This document shows positions 53,827 to 62,868 of a DNA stretch of 64,000 nt, one piece after another. Location: positions 620,001 to 684,000 of the forward strand of contig NZ_JAFMSZ010000001.1 of NCBI RefSeq assembly GCF_017916505.1. The letters are read 5' to 3'. The translations under genes were made by a program, and so were the position numbers. Numbering within the stretch: the first letter of the stretch is position 1; each line of letters begins with the position of its first letter. This DNA comes from Naasia sp. SYSU D00057 (lineage in GTDB: Bacteria > Actinomycetota > Actinomycetes > Actinomycetales > Microbacteriaceae). The notes under the pieces were generated by a model, which was not told where the DNA came from, made no database searches, and worked only from the letters and a program-made list of their open reading frames with translations.

Positions 53827-54651
53827 ATGGGCACCATCACGACGACCGACGGCACCGAGATCTTCTACAAGGACTGGGGCTCCGGCCAGCCCATCGTCTT
53901 CAGCCACGGCTGGCCGCTGTCCGCGGACGACTGGGACGCCCAGCTGCTGTTCTTCGTCCAGCACGGCTTCCGGGTCATCGCCCACGATCGGCGCGGGCAC
54001 GGGCGGTCGACGCAGACGAGCGACGGGCACGACATGGACCACTACGCCGCTGACCTGGCGGCGCTCACCGAGCACCTCGACCTGCAGGACGCGATCCACG
54101 TCGGCCACTCGACGGGCGGCGGCGAGGTGGTGCACTACATCGCCCAGCACGGCGAGGCGCGGGTGGCGCGGGCTGTGCTGATCAGCGCGGTTCCGCCGAT
54201 CATGGTGCAGACCGAGAGCAACCCCGGCGGGCTGCCGAAGTCGGTGTTCGACGACCTGCAGGCGCAGCTCGCGGCGAGCCGGACCGACTTTTACCGCGCG
54301 CTCCCGTCCGGCCCGTTCTACGGCTACAACCGCCCCGGGGTGGAGCCGTCCGAGGCGGTCATCGAGAACTGGTGGCGGCAGGGGATGATGGGCGGCGCCA
54401 AGGCGCACTACGACGGGATCGTCGCCTTCTCGCAGACCGACTTCACGGAGGACCTGAAGAAGATCACCGTGCCGGTCCTCGTGATGCACGGCGACGACGA
54501 CCAGATCGTGCCCTACGAGGACTCCGCGCCGCTGTCCGCGAAGCTGCTGCAGAACGGCACGCTGAAGACGTACCCCGGCTTCCCGCACGGCATGCCCACC
54601 ACGCAGGCGGAGACGATCAACGCCGACCTGCTGGAGTGGATCCGGTCCTGA
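53827..54651 (+). CDS. Alpha/beta hydrolase (non-haem chloroperoxidase-like)
   Basis: A 274-aa alpha/beta hydrolase close to bacterial cofactor-free haloperoxidases and esterases: [20 protein letters not shown], oxyanion [15 protein letters not shown], nucleophile elbow [14 protein letters not shown] (Ser about 97), acid in [11 protein letters not shown] and His in [11 protein letters not shown]. No signal peptide. The natural substrate is probably an ester; the peroxidase label is historical. AGGAGG-like GGAGGAA precedes ATG 53827. Single gene. Confidence 0.9.
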
Positions 54652-54702: not shown

Positions 54703-55410
54703 TCAGGAGAGGTCGAGCCGGCGGGCGGTCGCCGCGTTGACGGCGTCCGCGACAGCATCCGCGCGGCCCGGCGCATAGGCGTCGATCGTGTCGCCCGCGA
54801 TGGCGGCCACGAGCGCCATCGCGAACCGCGGATTGCGGGCGACCACCGGACCGTGCAGGTGCGTGCCGAAGAGGCTGCCCAGGCGGATGCCGTCGCTGCC
54901 GGTGCCGTTGCCCGCGCCCCGCACGACGCCGCCGAGCGGCGTCACCCCCTCGTCGAGCGTCAGGCCGCGCCCGTGGTTCTCGTACCCGAACAGGCGCCCC
55001 CAGGCCGAGTCGACCACGAGGTCGCCGGCCACGCGTCCCGGCAGGGCGGTCGCCTCGCCGGGCACCAGGCCGAGCCCGTCGATCGCGCCGTCGGGAAGCT
55101 CGACGCGGCGGCTCAGAAGCTCGACGCCGGTGCCGACGACGAGCAGCGGGACGTCCGCGGCGAGCCATCCGGTGAGCTGCCCGCGAAGCGTCGCGAGAGC
55201 GTCCCGGGTGCGCTCGAGGGCGGAGTCGACGCCGGAGCCGAGCACGACGGCCGCGGGCGAGAAGCCGGGCGCCGGGTCGCCCTCGGCGAGCGGCACGACC
55301 TCCGCGTCCGCTCCCGCCCACTCGAGGCGGCGGGCGAGGGCGAGCGCGTTCTCGCCGTCGCCGTTGACGTTGGTGAGCTCCGGGAAGAGCTGCAGGATGC
55401 GGTGCGTCAT
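54703..55410 (-). CDS. GatD-like glutamine amidotransferase subunit lacking the catalytic Cys
   Basis: A 235-aa class I GATase-like protein of the CobB/CobQ-like GatD group (MTHRILQLFPELTNVNGDGE). In active GatD the nucleophile sits in a VCGGYQLLG motif near residue 94; here the segment reads LLVVGTGVELL, so the Cys position is Gly93. The family GYENHGR motif (about 142-148) and C-terminal GTHLHGP (His184, His186) remain. Translationally coupled by ATGA to the MurT-like gene upstream. Without the nucleophile it should not release ammonia from glutamine; it may be structural or have a changed function. Confidence 0.85.
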   Translation of the reverse strand: MTHRILQLFPELTNVNGDGENALALARRLEWAGADAEVVPLAEGDPAPGFSPAAVVLGSGVDSALERTRDALATLRGQLTGWLAADVPLLVVGTGVELLSRRVELPDGAIDGLGLVPGEATALPGRVAGDLVVDSAWGRLFGYENHGRGLTLDEGVTPLGGVVRGAGNGTGSDGIRLGSLFGTHLHGPVVARNPRFAMALVAAIAGDTIDAYAPGRADAVADAVNAATARRLDLS

Positions 55411-56804
55411 TGGGCGAGTCCCAGGTGGCTGCGGGTGCGGCGCATGGGGTCCGCGGTGAAAACGATGGTCTTCACGCCGCGCTCCGGTTCGGGCAGGGCG
55501 AGGAAGCGGTCGAGGGCCGCCGCCAGGTCGGGCTCGATCTCGTCGACCTGCACCCCCTGGTAGATCAGCTGGAGCGCCATCTCCTGCGCCTTCGACCCGG
55601 TGACGATCCGTGCCCGACCGATGCGGGACGCGTCGACCGGCCAGAAGTAGGACGGGTCGGCGACGTCCGACCCCATCGCCACCAACACCTGGTCGAGGCC
55701 CTCGTCGAGCTCGTCGACGTTCAGCTGGAAGCTGGCCGGATTCTGCACGAGCACGAACTCGACCTGCTTGCCCTGCACCGTGACGACCTCGCCGCGCCCG
55801 AAGACCGCGGGCATCGCCGAGATCGCGGCGACCGCCACGGCCGCGTCGAACCCGTCGCCGAGGAGCGATCGCGCAGCGGCGAGGGCCGCCGCGGCGTCGA
55901 CGGCGTAGTGGATGCCCCTCGCCGGCAGTCCCACCTCGTGGATGGCGCCGTCGAACGCGATGGATGCCGAGCGGCCGGAGACACCCGTGACCATGGTGCC
56001 GCCGTCGAAGCGGGCGACCGTGGTCTCCGCGTAGCCGAGGCCCCGCGGGAGGGCGGCGAGGACCTGCTCGGAGACGCCGAAGAGCTCCACCGTGGGCGTG
56101 CCGGCGCCGCGCGGCGCTTGCGCGGGTCCGGGTCCGGCCTCGTCGAAGAGCGACTGGAGGGTGGAGGCGTCCGAGGCGTCCGAGGCGTCCGCATGGTGGT
56201 TCCGAGACGGCGCCTGCGGCGATTCCTCAACCTCGGGGGGCGCATCCGCCAGCCGCATGAGCATGGCGTCGTCGGCGTTGAGGATCAGCTTGTCCGTCGC
56301 GCGCGACGCGATCTGGCGCAGGTAGGCGAGCACCTTCTCGCTGTCGTGGAAGCGGTCGATCTGGTCGGTCATGACGTTCGTGAGCACGACCGTGCGCGCC
56401 TCGAACTGCGGCGAAAGGAGCGCACCGTGCCCCTCGTCCATCTCGAGGACCGCCATGTCCGCGTCGATGCGCCCGGTCAGCGACACCCGCTCCAGCAGCG
56501 CCGAGGTGAGGCCCTGGCTGATGTTCGCGGTCGACGGGTTGGTGAAGATCCGCTTGCCGTGCGCCTCGAGGACGGTGACCAGCATCTTCGTGGTGGTCGA
56601 CTTGCCCGACGAGCCGGAGACGACGACGAGCCCCTCCGGGAAGTGCGACAGCACGGAGCCGAGGAAGCCGGGCGAGAGCTTGTTGACCACGAGGCCGGGG
56701 ACGGCGGAACCTCCCCCGCGCTTGCGCAGGCGGGCGGCGGTCCGCGCGGCGCGGCCGACCAGGACGGCGGGTGCCCAATGGATTCCAGGCGGTCGAGTCG
56801 TCAT
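55407..56804 (-). CDS. MurT-like Mur ligase without zinc ribbon
   Basis: A 465-aa Mur ligase family protein. MurT uses ATP and GatD-derived ammonia to amidate the D-Glu of lipid II. Here the P-loop is GSSGKSTTTKM (about 64-74), with EMDEGHG (121-127) and TNVMTDQIDRF (142-152) of the central domain. The Cys4 zinc ribbon of MurT, expected at about residues 200-230, is replaced by a low-complexity stretch with three ASD-type repeats; the protein has no cysteine. The usual DGRDVSWIWD motif of the C-terminal domain reads DVADPSYFWPVD. The C-terminal GSKAQEMALQLIYQGV is conserved. ATG 56804; 4-bp overlap with the GatD-like gene. Confidence 0.87.
   Translation of the reverse strand: MTTRPPGIHWAPAVLVGRAARTAARLRKRGGGSAVPGLVVNKLSPGFLGSVLSHFPEGLVVVSGSSGKSTTTKMLVTVLEAHGKRIFTNPSTANISQGLTSALLERVSLTGRIDADMAVLEMDEGHGALLSPQFEARTVVLTNVMTDQIDRFHDSEKVLAYLRQIASRATDKLILNADDAMLMRLADAPPEVEESPQAPSRNHHADASDASDASTLQSLFDEAGPGPAQAPRGAGTPTVELFGVSEQVLAALPRGLGYAETTVARFDGGTMVTGVSGRSASIAFDGAIHEVGLPARGIHYAVDAAAALAAARSLLGDGFDAAVAVAAISAMPAVFGRGEVVTVQGKQVEFVLVQNPASFQLNVDELDEGLDQVLVAMGSDVADPSYFWPVDASRIGRARIVTGSKAQEMALQLIYQGVQVDEIEPDLAAALDRFLALPEPERGVKTIVFTADPMRRTRSHLGLAQ
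56164..56190. repeat. 9-bp unit repeated three times inside the MurT-like gene
   Basis: GAGGCGTCC occurs three times in tandem at the place where the MurT zinc ribbon would be, encoding an Asp-Ala-Ser repeat. It indicates slippage in a relaxed linker. Confidence 0.9.
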
Positions 56805-56890: not shown

Positions 56891-57760
56891 TCAGGCCGCC
56901 TCGTCGTCGTCCGCGGCGCCCTGAAGGTTGTGCAGGATCGACGGGCGGCTCGGCGCCCAGCCGAAGGTCTCCTTGGCGCGGCGGCCGCTCGCCTGCTGAT
57001 CGAGCAGCAGCGCGTCCGCGAACGCGGCGCCCAGGCGGGCGCGCGTCTCCTCCGCGGTCTCCGGCGCCACGGCGCCGCCCGCGCCGGCGGCCGCCTCCGC
57101 CAGCTCCCGAACGGTCGGGCTGATACCGCTCGCGCCGATGTAGGTGCCACCGCCCGGCGCATGCTCGAGGACGCGGACGTAGAGGTCGGCGAGGTCGTCG
57201 ACGTGCACGGTGGCCCAGTGCTGCGTCCCGTCGCCGACGAGGCGCAGCGCCCCGTGCTCGTCGCGCGGCGCGTCGGCGATCACGCTGACCGGGATGCCGA
57301 TGCCGTAGCCGTAGACGATGCCCGGCGCGACCAGGGACGCCTTCACGTCGGAGTCGAGGATCCGCCGCTCCTGCTCCTGGCGCCACGCCGTCAGCGCGGG
57401 CGGGTTCTGCGGGTCGGCCTCGTCGATGTCGGTTCCGCTCCCCCACGACCACACTCCGCCGGTGTGCACGAACGGCTTGCCGGTGCCGCCGAACGCGTCG
57501 ATGACGGCGTCGAGCACCGCCGCGTCCATCGCGGCTCCGCCCGCGGCCGAGTGGATCGAGCCGTCCGCCTCGCGCAGCAGCGCTCCGAACCAGGCGGGGT
57601 CGGTGATGTCGCCGATCACCGCCCGTGCACCCTTCGCCGCGACCCGACGTGCCGCCTCCTCGCTGCGGACGGCGACGGTCACGTCATGGCCCTTCGCGGT
57701 GAGCGCGTCGAGGACGGCGCCGCCGATGTAGCCGGTGCCGCCGGTGAGGAGGATGTGCAT
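56891..57760 (-). CDS. NAD-dependent epimerase/dehydratase family protein
   Basis: A 289-aa extended SDR (MHILLTGGTGYIGGAVLDAL). The N-terminal GxxGxxG dinucleotide motif is intact, DITDPAWFGALL follows, and GIVYGYGIG carries the Tyr-rich active-site region; a canonical YxxxK is not evident, as in many atypical SDRs. It may reduce or epimerise a sugar nucleotide or small carbonyl. It lies 86 bp upstream of the MurT-like gene in the same direction, so co-transcription is possible but not coupled. Confidence 0.86.
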   Translation of the reverse strand: MHILLTGGTGYIGGAVLDALTAKGHDVTVAVRSEEAARRVAAKGARAVIGDITDPAWFGALLREADGSIHSAAGGAAMDAAVLDAVIDAFGGTGKPFVHTGGVWSWGSGTDIDEADPQNPPALTAWRQEQERRILDSDVKASLVAPGIVYGYGIGIPVSVIADAPRDEHGALRLVGDGTQHWATVHVDDLADLYVRVLEHAPGGGTYIGASGISPTVRELAEAAAGAGGAVAPETAEETRARLGAAFADALLLDQQASGRRAKETFGWAPSRPSILHNLQGAADDDEAA

Positions 57761-58047: not shown

Positions 58048-59463
<1,416 letters not shown>

Positions 59464-59640
59464 CGGGTGTACACCTTTCCTACCGGTGGTCGGTGATGAG
59501 GGCGGACGGCTCGGAGGACGCTTGTTCAGCGTGGTGCGGGCAACACTTGGACCCATGTCAAGTCCTTCGGCCGGCGGCGCCGAAGCGCTACCGTCCTTTC
59601 CCAGGAGTTGAACGGGTCCTATCCAATTATTGCACGCGCG

Positions 59641-60993
59641 CTATGACCCGGCGGACGACGCCTGCCCTCCAGCGGTGCGTCGCGCCCGTCGGCGTCCCCA
59701 CGCCCTCGCCAATGCAACCCACAGAGGGCCCACCTGTATTCCCTCCTCCTCGGCCATCAGCCGCCGGGTGCGACGGCGTGCCCGCAGGAGCATGAGGACG
59801 CCGAAGCCGACCACCGGCACCTGGACGAGCTCGGCGAGCCGGAACGAGTCGATGTCGTACAGGGCTCCCGGGTCTCCCCCGCTCAGGGCGTCGAGGACGA
59901 GCCCGATGAGCAGCATCATCGTGAAGCTCGCGGTGAAGCCTCCCACGTTGACGATGCCGTTCGCCGAGCCGAGCCGCCGGGCGGGATTGAAGGTACGGGC
60001 GAAGTCGAAGCCGATCTGGGAGGCCGGTCCCCCGATCCCCAGCGCGACGACGAGGACCACCACGAGCCAGGCGGGCGGACGGCCGGGCCAGAGCAGGACG
60101 GTGCCCCACGCGATCGTCATGAGCGCGACCGTCAGCAGCGCGAGACTCGAACGCCGGAGCGGATGGCGCACGGTCAGCAGCCCGAGGAACGGCCCGACCA
60201 CGAGGCCGGTGAGCACCATGAGGGCGAGCATCGCGGAGCCGAAGGCGGGCGGGAGCCCCACCCCGAACACCATGAAGGGGTAGCCCCACATGAGCGCGAA
60301 GACGACGCCCGGCGACTGGGTCACGAAGTGCGCCCAGAACCCGAGCTGCGTGCCGGGGCGCTTGAGGCTCGCGCGCAGCTGCGCCAGCGCCTCCCTGAGG
60401 CTCGCGACCTTCTGCGCGTGCGGGGACAGCTCCGTCCCGTTCGAGACGACGGCGAGGCAGACCACGAAGGAGAGCACGGAGAGGCCGGCCGCGCTGAGGA
60501 ACGCGGGCGTCCAGCCCGCCGAGTGCAGCAGCGCGGCGAACGGGATCGCGGAGAGCACCTGGCCGAACTGGCCGAGGTTGCCCATCCACTGGTTGAGCTG
60601 CGGCACCTTCCGGCCGCTGAACCACGTGTTGGTGAGGCGCAGCACGGAGGTGAAGGTGGCCGCGTCGCCCGCGCCCACCAGGACGCGGCCGATCACGGCG
60701 ACCTCGAGGGTCGGCGAGATGGCGACGACCGCCTGTCCGATCGCCATGAGCGCCGCGCCGGAGACGAGCAGCGGCTTGGGCCCGAGCCGGTCGATGAGCA
60801 CGCCGACCGGCACCTGCAGCGCCGCGTAGACCACCAGCTGCAGCACGCCGAGCGTGGAGAGCGCGGCGGCCGTCGAGGAGAAGCGGTCGCTCGCATCGAC
60901 CGCGGCGACGCCGAGGCTCGAGCGCTGGGTGATCGACACCAGATAGGCCACGACGCCCGCGCTGAAGATGATCCAGGAGCGTCGCGAATTCAC
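59641..60993 (-). CDS. MFS transporter
   Basis: A 450-aa major facilitator with 12 predicted helices. GTG 60993 (MNSRRSWIIFSAGVVAYLVS). Motif A between helices 2 and 3 appears as GVLIDRLGPKPLL; the matching loop RHPLRRSSLALLTVA lies in the second half. It resembles NarK/OPA-type transporters in having LQVPVGVLIDRLG, but the substrate is unknown. The C-terminal tail (GRRRARRTAGGQASSAGS) is basic and cytoplasmic. Divergent from the SDR gene with 71 bp between starts. Confidence 0.9.
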   Translation of the reverse strand: MNSRRSWIIFSAGVVAYLVSITQRSSLGVAAVDASDRFSSTAAALSTLGVLQLVVYAALQVPVGVLIDRLGPKPLLVSGAALMAIGQAVVAISPTLEVAVIGRVLVGAGDAATFTSVLRLTNTWFSGRKVPQLNQWMGNLGQFGQVLSAIPFAALLHSAGWTPAFLSAAGLSVLSFVVCLAVVSNGTELSPHAQKVASLREALAQLRASLKRPGTQLGFWAHFVTQSPGVVFALMWGYPFMVFGVGLPPAFGSAMLALMVLTGLVVGPFLGLLTVRHPLRRSSLALLTVALMTIAWGTVLLWPGRPPAWLVVVLVVALGIGGPASQIGFDFARTFNPARRLGSANGIVNVGGFTASFTMMLLIGLVLDALSGGDPGALYDIDSFRLAELVQVPVVGFGVLMLLRARRRTRRLMAEEEGIQVGPLWVALARAWGRRRARRTAGGQASSAGS

Positions 60994-61938: not shown

Positions 61939-62868
61939 TCAGCCCTGATCCTCGTCGCTGCGCCGACGCGCGGCGAGGAACTTCTCGAGCTCGGCCGCGA
62001 TCTCGTCGGCGCTCGGCACGCTGCCGTCCTCGTCGACGAGCGGCGACGGCAGCGGGTTGCCCTGCATGTACGTGTCGTGCCGCTCCTCGAGCGTGCCCAC
62101 GAGCCGCGCGAGCTCCTCGCTCGCGGTCACCTGCTCGTCGATCTTCGAGACGAACTCGCGACCCTCCTCCCGGAGGCGGTCGGTCGGGAAGATGAGTCCG
62201 GTCGCGGCGCTGACGCTCTCGAGCGCCGTGACGGCGGCGAGCGGGAACTCGGTGTCGGAGAGGTAGTGCGGAACGAGCAGCACGAACCCGGTGACCGACT
62301 CCCCCTTGTCGGCGAGCCGGTACTCGACGAGGTGCAGCAGGTTGGCGGGCGCCTGCGTGCGCGGTCGCCAGGCGGACATCGACTCGACGAGGTCCGTCCG
62401 GGTGCCGGACACGGTCACCTTGATCGGGCGGGTGTGCGGCACCGGCATCGGGATGGCGTGCACCCACGTGGTGGAGATCACCTGGAACCGCTCCATGAGG
62501 CCGAGCAGGGCGTCGGCGAAGCGGTCCCACTGGAAGTCGGGCTCGTAGCCGGTGAGGAGCAGGAACGGGATGCCGAGCTCGTCGTGCGCGAGCGAGAGCA
62601 CGAGGCGCGGCGGCGAGTACTCGGTGAGGTGGTCCTCGTCGAACATGATCGTCGGGCGCCGGGCGCGGTAGTCGAGCAGGGCGTCGTTGTCGAACACCGC
62701 GATCTCGGTGGTGCGCACCGTCTCGAGCAGGTACCGGTTCAGCTGGGTCACGGCGGAGCCCGCGTCGGCGAAGCCGGTGAGGCCCGCGACGAGTGCGAGA
62801 CCCGTGGGCACCTCCTCCGCCGCCGGCGTCAGCTCGAAGAGCTCCTCCGGATTGCGCATGACACCCAT
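61939..62868 (-). CDS. PAC2 family protein (proteasome assembly chaperone-like)
   Basis: A 309-aa PAC2-domain protein starting MGVMRNPEELFELTPAAEEV (ATG 62868; ATG 62859 also possible). Conserved parts: LALVAGLTGFADAGSAVTQL, FDNDALLDYRARRPTIMFDE and VHAIPMPVPHTRPIKVT. In actinobacteria the family is usual beside pepA/sigA; homology to eukaryotic proteasome chaperones does not establish function. The frame continues far upstream with shadow-like composition and is not used. Divergent from the aminopeptidase gene (117 bp). Confidence 0.9.
   Translation of the reverse strand: MGVMRNPEELFELTPAAEEVPTGLALVAGLTGFADAGSAVTQLNRYLLETVRTTEIAVFDNDALLDYRARRPTIMFDEDHLTEYSPPRLVLSLAHDELGIPFLLLTGYEPDFQWDRFADALLGLMERFQVISTTWVHAIPMPVPHTRPIKVTVSGTRTDLVESMSAWRPRTQAPANLLHLVEYRLADKGESVTGFVLLVPHYLSDTEFPLAAVTALESVSAATGLIFPTDRLREEGREFVSKIDEQVTASEELARLVGTLEERHDTYMQGNPLPSPLVDEDGSVPSADEIAAELEKFLAARRRSDEDQG

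Follow-up and report, generated by a model that had tools for sequence, protein, structure and literature searches.

The closest described relatives of the locus analyzed here are the MurT-GatD isoglutaminyl synthases of Staphylococcus aureus, Streptococcus pneumoniae and Streptococcus pyogenes. Excerpts of the S. aureus studies report that Arg128 of GatD holds the glutamine and that the C94A, H189A and R128A variants are each inactive (PMC5871853), that MurT by itself is inactive and that MurE can be replaced by MurT in vitro (PMC3266927). The excerpted text of the latter source also describes a C94G variant of GatD, in which use of glutamine is abolished and ammonia-dependent amidation of lipid II persists at pH 8.5; ammonia is not used at pH 7.5. 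On the MurT side, excerpts of PMC6113224 relate that the DNAAD motif was suggested to contact the stem lysine and that the zinc finger is apparently confined to a subset of the bacteria with these genes. A pair of this type is found in a stretch of 64,000 nucleotides from the Microbacteriaceae strain Naasia sp. SYSU D00057 (contig NZ_JAFMSZ010000001.1, positions 620,001 to 684,000), which we call the window, and its GatD-like protein lacks the catalytic cysteine. Comparison of sequences, gene neighborhoods and gene trees suggests that this MurT-GatD has been retooled into an amino-acid ligase, one that would attach the first residue of the B-type peptidoglycan bridge to D-Glu, with GatD as a noncatalytic partner. 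We give this reading a probability of roughly 70%.

The window pair shares with the known isoglutaminyl synthases the gene order (murT directly upstream of gatD, overlapping it), both folds, the ATP site, the triad aspartate and the histidine, but it has no nucleophilic cysteine and no zinc ribbon, a shortened DNAAD-GR stretch, profile scores below the cutoffs and a position after rpoD. In the alignment with S. aureus GatD, Cys94 corresponds to Gly93 of the window protein, and His189 corresponds to His186, which stands in an intact His186-Gly-Pro (HGP) loop. The MurT-like protein contains no cysteine at all, and hence no ribbon. These features, together with the gene order, coordinates and ATGA overlap, had been read from the letters alone in an earlier annotation (the original prediction), and they hold. 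GatD-like Arg126, the counterpart of S. aureus Arg128, is retained as well. The original prediction also had the DGRDVSW motif of MurT lost, and this stands only in part: the DNAAD-GR stretch preceding the triad aspartate is shortened and as a motif gone, but the aspartate itself (D349 in S. aureus MurT, where it is the second aspartate of DGRD) aligns with D383 of the window protein, which rules out its loss. A P-loop of the GxxGK[ST] type (G64-S69, with K68) and the conserved acidic residues (E121, D123 and E124) place the protein in the Mur ligase superfamily, and N143, N176 and R337 of the ATP site are also kept.

Domain and fold comparisons agree with this picture. The MurT-like protein carries the Pfam domains Mur_ligase_M and MurT_C, and the GatD-like protein matches PF07685 (GATase_3, a glutamine amidotransferase [GATase] family) with 42 bits. 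The AlphaFold2 (AF2) models have S. aureus GatD (6gs2_A, Foldseek E 4.5e-19; mean predicted local distance difference test [pLDDT] score of the model, 96.3) and S. aureus MurT (7q8e_A; mean pLDDT, 88.8) as their top PDB matches; MurF was matched about equally to MurT, and MurE was matched too, and we draw no inference from this ranking. The NCBIfam equivalog cutoffs are missed by a wide gap (87.3 versus 800 bits for MurT, 58.8 versus 400 and 66.3 versus 450 for GatD). As both the catalytic cysteine and the curated scores are wanting, the pair is not classed as an isoglutaminyl synthase; it would be expected to act as Mur ligases do, together with a partner of GatD fold. With MurC-F and the pseudomurein ligases it would share ATP-dependent amide ligation, but its MurT-type truncated N terminus and GATase-fold partner set it apart. 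Interpeptide bridges are assembled on the precursor by Fem transferases and ATP-grasp D-Asp ligases too, but these attach residues to the side chain of residue 3 in A-type walls, and no FemAB match (PF02388), and so no Fem-type bridge enzyme, was found in the window genome. The Cys-to-Gly state itself is shared with S. aureus MurT plus the GatD C94G laboratory mutant, which in the excerpts of PMC3266927 still needs GatD and uses an external amine but takes only ammonia, at pH 8.5.

We refer to a MurT-GatD pair without the GatD nucleophile as a dead pair and to one that keeps it as a Cys pair. In total, 179 loci were read: 121 are from Microbacteriaceae, and nine further families in the same order contributed the other 58. 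A GatD protein search matched 115 of 150 Microbacteriaceae genomes and, outside the family, 106 of 297 genomes, part of whose matches were fetched as loci. The final inventory of pair-bearing Microbacteriaceae genomes stands at 120 (119 at E < 1e-80 and one with the pair on a split contig), and the Cys position was read in 111 of them: 14 have Cys pairs only, 3 have both kinds and 94 have dead pairs only. Counted by locus, the cysteine is absent from 104 of the 121 Microbacteriaceae loci and retained in 17, and both Cys and His are kept in all 58 loci of the other families, whose walls are presumed to be A type. The original prediction had proposed mapping the loss on the tree, where it falls within Microbacteriaceae and in 0 of the 58 outside loci. 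The dead loci comprise 94 ribbonless and 10 ribbon-bearing ones, which form one clade (support, 0.986) and another (0.989) in a locus tree with some unsupported deep nodes; because these clades are separate, the cysteine was lost at least twice, each time within the family. The best 80 loci of a scan of named genera (19 genus names) all lack the cysteine, in a search keyed on dead MurT sequences that cannot count Cys pairs. These genera belong to Microbacteriaceae, several of them according to PMC5945732 and PMC7033078. The ribbon loss, which had been taken as a further sign of repurposing, does not bear that weight: CxxC is missing in 46 of the 58 Cys-bearing pairs of the other families, and since ribbonless Cys pairs are this common, the loss is no evidence of a new function.

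Dead pairs also have a fixed place in the genome. Of 190 assessable dead loci, 187 have the primary sigma factor gene rpoD upstream in the same orientation (four more were too short), or 169 of 172 when distinct loci are counted, and the distance to murT, checked only after these counts were made, is within 0.4 kb in 182 of the 187 and within 0.6 kb in the other five. The ribbon-bearing lineage has the same arrangement in 9 of its 10 loci (L089, L091, L164-L167, L183, L184, L186 and L187). Among Microbacteriaceae Cys pairs rpoD is upstream in 0 of 16 assessable loci (one too short), and outside the family in 0 of 28 (30 too short). The wider loci of the window clade read PAC2, major facilitator superfamily (MFS) transporter, rpoD, the pair, parE and parC, some labels being missing where gene finding failed; parE is the usual downstream border and is present in 18 of 21 of these loci, the three without it being the window genome and two sampled genus-mates. 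In 20 genomes from outside the family, the 1.5 kb around rpoD contain no cassette gene, and in 9 of them they contain parE. In all 14 Microbacteriaceae genomes with only a Cys pair, parE comes next after rpoD and the two matches stand no more than about 0.7 kb apart, so that the slot is empty. The slot is also empty in six of the nine genomes with neither of the systems described below; two of the remaining three have transporter-like genes there, and in the third the only sigma factor recovered was a distant one.

Four genomes that lack the pair hold other ligase-like genes in the slot, coding for two proteins, one CofE-like (PF01996, E about 1e-12) and the other of the ATP-grasp type (PF14397, E 1e-27 to 1e-32). 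Profile searches of the 150 Microbacteriaceae genomes returned 24 CofE-like matches, of which 21 are strong (E <= 1e-90) and three are weak (1e-33 to 1e-38). The pair and a strong CofE-like gene never occur together: 120 genomes have the pair only, 21 have CofE only and 9 have neither (Fisher p 6e-19, a value that is too small because the genomes are related), and one of those scored as neither, G005, has a partial match at 5.5e-40 in the pair inventory. Seven genera each hold one genome with the pair and one with the CofE-like gene. In 24 CofE-region loci the CofE-like gene is within 0.3 kb of rpoD in 21, accompanied by the ATP-grasp gene in 21, by a racemase gene in 15 and by parE in 22. Judging from these neighborhoods and matches, the CofE-like protein, a member of the F420 ligase family, is an alternative cassette in the slot after rpoD (L321-L347). 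What occupies the slot is a dead pair of either of two independent lineages, a CofE-like gene usually with ATP-grasp and often with split racemase genes, or nothing. Two of the three weak CofE-like matches (in G053 and G123) adjoin ribbon-bearing dead pairs, and in G123 the gene sits between rpoD and murT.

The pattern of conservation separates what the dead pairs have given up from what they keep. The nucleophile position of the 94 ribbonless pairs is Gly in 70, Ala in 16, Ser in 4, Thr in 2 and Asn in 2, and the 10 ribbon-bearing pairs have His or Gly there and an HGP loop without His. In the 94 ribbonless GatDs, Y17, D63, Q66, Q98 and Y187 are altered and the equivalent of His189, kept in the window, is lost in 29, and R128 is kept in 90 and the loop touching MurT is close to invariant (G190 in 94/94, N196 in 94/94 and P197 in 93/94). 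Their MurT partners conserve the ATP-site residues at 99 to 100% and retain the D383 equivalent, and compared with Cys pairs they have acquired H299, D303, S358 and N362 (window numbering; 99 to 100% fixed) and K405 (93%). Plain decay of an unneeded amidation operon, hitchhiking beside rpoD, would account for the lost cysteine and, in some clades, for the loss of His and other pocket residues, but the median ratio of nonsynonymous to synonymous substitution rates (dN/dS) is 0.148 for murT and 0.172 for gatD (66 of 66 comparisons among 12 of the 19 named Curtobacterium loci), and the 4-base overlap is retained in 183 of the 194 dead loci pooled for tree and overlap counts (176 of them distinct), which bears out the argument already made from the intact operon. 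Decay is also contradicted by a second dead lineage that shares the slot and by gene trees that differ from rpoB. Residue conservation, dN/dS, overlap and fixed slot rule it out, and by the signature of their sequences the dead pairs are not decaying genes; a chance of decay is close to nil. The original prediction had also allowed for a structural role, that is, a noncatalytic pair or scaffold that only organizes or regulates wall synthesis, which would suit the vanished glutaminase chemistry and the missing His189 equivalents. A scaffold has no need of the ATP-binding residues of MurT, which are nonetheless conserved, and other genomes fill the same slot with unrelated ligase families, so that we regard this role as very improbable.

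In B-type walls the alpha-carboxyl of D-Glu is occupied by the bridge, and in Microbacterium-type walls a Gly stands between D-Glu and the diamino acid. The tree of the 194 dead loci contains one clade (0.93) with Clavibacter, Subtercola, Glaciihabitans, Herbiconiux, Leifsonia, Pseudoclavibacter and Diaminobutyricibacter, a second (1.0) with Frigoribacterium, Frondihabitans, Curtobacterium, Agreia, Salinibacterium, Labedella, Humibacter and the genus g85, and a third (1.0) of Okibacterium and Mycetocola; the window pair belongs to a further clade, apart from those of named genera. One g85 locus (L149, genome G413), unlike the other g85 pairs read, carries a pair of the first clade, near Pseudoclavibacter, without rpoD upstream. 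Excerpted species descriptions give diaminobutyric acid (DAB) for Subtercola vilae, a B2-gamma wall with DAB for Subtercola, L-DAB joined to D-ornithine (Orn) for Agreia and D-Orn for Frondihabitans (PMC5945732); DAB for Glaciihabitans, D-Lys for Frigoribacterium, Lys plus Orn for Salinibacterium and Orn for Frondihabitans (PMC7033078); DAB for the Clavibacter wall (PMC9190974); and D-Orn, L-Lys or DAB for Microbacterium species (PMC10757982). On these sources, a division into a DAB clade (Subtercola, Glaciihabitans and Clavibacter) and an Orn/Lys clade (Agreia, Frondihabitans, Frigoribacterium and Salinibacterium) is contradicted by none of the seven genera with chemistry.

The cleanest contrast is between Agreia and Subtercola, which in the excerpted descriptions have the same residue 3 (DAB) and different bridges. 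On rpoB (29 genomes, 1169 codons) the two are sisters (ultrafast bootstrap [UFBoot] support, 77 for DNA and 96 for protein), the MurT-GatD data reject this grouping (approximately unbiased [AU] test, p 6.7e-45, full constraint), and the reverse grouping of Agreia is in turn rejected by rpoB (p 0.0024). For these two genera the gene clade follows the bridge amino acid against the species tree. The MurT-GatD data also reject the monophyly of three g85 genomes (1e-30; rpoB support 100 and 100) and the grouping of Labedella with Okibacterium (1e-6; rpoB support 86 for DNA and 52 for protein). These full tree constraints replace partial ones, under which Labedella plus Okibacterium was trivially satisfied (p 0.52) and the Shimodaira-Hasegawa (SH) test kept the partial Agreia constraints.

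Racemase genes are frequent neighbors of the named pairs. Of the best 80 named loci, 32 have a large gene of the alanine racemase family (about 350 amino acids [aa]) no farther than 1.6 kb from gatD, and in 31 of these 32 it is accompanied by a small one. Two small proteins that were scanned have the whole C-terminal domain and only 73 to 80 of the 220 N-terminal positions, and two large ones have the whole N-terminal domain and a C-terminal domain without its first 28 to 35 positions. At the pyridoxal phosphate (PLP)-lysine motif, the small proteins have Arg in 26 of 31, with no Lys seen, and every one of the 28 large proteins in which the motif was found has Lys. Small and large proteins look complementary, which suggests from sequence that they are parts of one heteromeric racemase; L234:8027-9846 and L218:8001-9775 are examples of the tandem arrangement. 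The genes adjoin the pair in Leifsonia (8/8), Pseudoclavibacter (4/4), Agreia (4/4) and Labedella (2/2), and also in Diaminobutyricibacter, Schumannella, Salinibacterium, Humibacter and others. No racemase was found beside the pair in the named loci of Herbiconiux, Subtercola, Clavibacter, Curtobacterium, Frondihabitans, Frigoribacterium, Mycetocola and Okibacterium, and most tested representatives of these genera have a second racemase gene adjoining another elsewhere. That racemase genes also adjoin CofE cassettes, and that Gly precedes the diamino acid in Microbacterium-type walls, would fit a ligase for a later bridge position or another acceptor (the amino acid on D-Glu, or a different wall polymer) instead of the D-Glu alpha-carboxyl. 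The MurT homologs described in the excerpted literature act on the D-Glu of lipid II, and we consider such a displaced acceptor distinctly unlikely.

In the amino-acid ligase that we favor, MurT would still activate the D-Glu2 alpha-carboxyl of the wall precursor at the expense of ATP, as the retained residues and the chemistry of the family suggest, and by analogy with S. aureus the acceptor would be lipid II. GatD, no longer an ammonia maker, would be an obligatory partner that helps to bind and place the incoming amino acid, a role to which the missing nucleophile points in combination with the retained Arg126 and MurT-facing loop. This amino acid, which in relatives is likely to be a diamino acid, would be joined to the D-Glu alpha-carboxyl as the first bridge residue; the slot, the mutual exclusion with CofE and the match between clades and chemistry argue for this product. 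An enzyme that still amidates D-Glu, with free ammonia as the donor in place of glutamine, would count against such a ligase. It has to contend with a carboxyl already taken by the bridge in B-type walls, and it leaves unexplained the newly fixed residues, the clade-bridge match, the nearby racemases and the exclusion of strong CofE-like genes. The ATP site and triad aspartate are kept, and the S. aureus C94G complex amidates lipid II at pH 8.5, but at pH 7.5 ammonia goes unused in the excerpts (PMC3266927), and overall we find this amidase unlikely. The proposal that the pair was repurposed, for example to couple an amino acid to D-Glu, is supported over decay or a purely structural role, because of the constraint on the genes, the fixed slot, the exclusion between ligases, the racemases and the clades that track the bridge; the reaction itself we infer.

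The slot after rpoD, usually before parE, would then be a bridge cassette exchanged between lineages and deciding which amino acid is attached. Its fillings may be the ribbonless dead pair, the ribbon-bearing dead pair that arose by independent loss, and the CofE-like gene with or without ATP-grasp, and a split racemase may come with each. That this swappable rpoD-parE cassette resembles a serotype locus, that it decides the D-Glu-attached amino acid and with it the B-type chemistry, and that GatD is the binder of a (D-)diamino acid, is a wider proposal with about even odds of being right.

Several points weigh against the proposed ligase and its cassette. Three fragmented assemblies have both a Cys pair and a dead pair (G054, L043 and L082; G066, L049 and L056; G124, L041 and L083), which could be real or could be assembly mixing, and in the genus g85 the pair is present in 28 of 149 genomes and missing from 121. 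The CofE-like threshold was chosen after the gap in scores was seen, and with the weak matches included three genomes have both systems. The chemistry covers seven genera, for most of them as a genus-level statement, and the division between DAB and Orn/Lys was drawn after the tree was seen; the Glaciihabitans locus comes from a metagenome-assembled genome (MAG), and a MAG labeled Rhodoglobus falls in the DAB clade and may be an exception, if the ornithine that we tentatively assume for this genus is correct. Only the comparison of Agreia with Subtercola separates residue 3 from the bridge residue; elsewhere the two are confounded. If the genomes with an empty slot (14 with a Cys pair only and 6 with neither system) have B-type walls, another enzyme must exist. 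Racemase genes are missing beside the pair in 48 of the 80 named loci, and as only one Ala_racemase_C gene is present in the window genome and in each of the two genus-mates sampled, a D-diamino acid is unexplained there.

The window genome has seven Mur-ligase middle domains and a single MurT_C gene, and the single MurT_C match rules out a second copy of the pair. It also holds two MurE-like ligases, one near murF, murD and murC (L094; 216 bits against a murE subfamily cutoff of 257, with a DNPR-like motif seemingly missing by eye) and one outside the other mur genes (L092; 357 bits). The features of the locus are listed in Table 1.

Table 1. Gene pair, key codons and neighboring genes, in window coordinates
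Feature	Position	Strand	Basis
murT-like Mur ligase gene, 465 aa	55407..56804	-	Pfam, PDB sequence search, predicted fold
gatD-like gene, class I GATase fold, 235 aa	54703..55410	-	Pfam, PDB sequence search, predicted fold
Gly93 codon GGC, nucleophile position of GatD-like protein	55132..55134	-	Alignment with S. aureus GatD
ATGA overlap, murT stop/gatD start	55407..55410	-	
D383 codon of MurT-like protein, matching triad Asp D349 of S. aureus MurT	55656..55658	-	Alignment
rpoD, primary sigma factor; upstream border of cassette slot	58048..59556	-	Label from reading of translation
NAD-dependent epimerase-like open reading frame between rpoD and murT	56891..57760	-	Reading of translation, without family search
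MFS transporter-like gene upstream of rpoD, conserved flank	59641..60993	-	Label from reading of translation
PAC2-like gene, conserved flank	61939..62859	-	Label from reading of translation
Alpha/beta hydrolase-like gene downstream of gatD	53827..54651	+	Label from reading of translation

In the open-licence PubMed Central (PMC) literature we found no paper that names the enzyme starting the B-type bridge or reports such a pair. B-type peptidoglycan serves in classification, and if the proposed function is true, wall chemistry across much of the family could be predicted from sequence, with the gene pair, its fixed slot and a short motif as markers. It would also mean that a glutaminase has been turned into the partner subunit of an amino-acid ligase.

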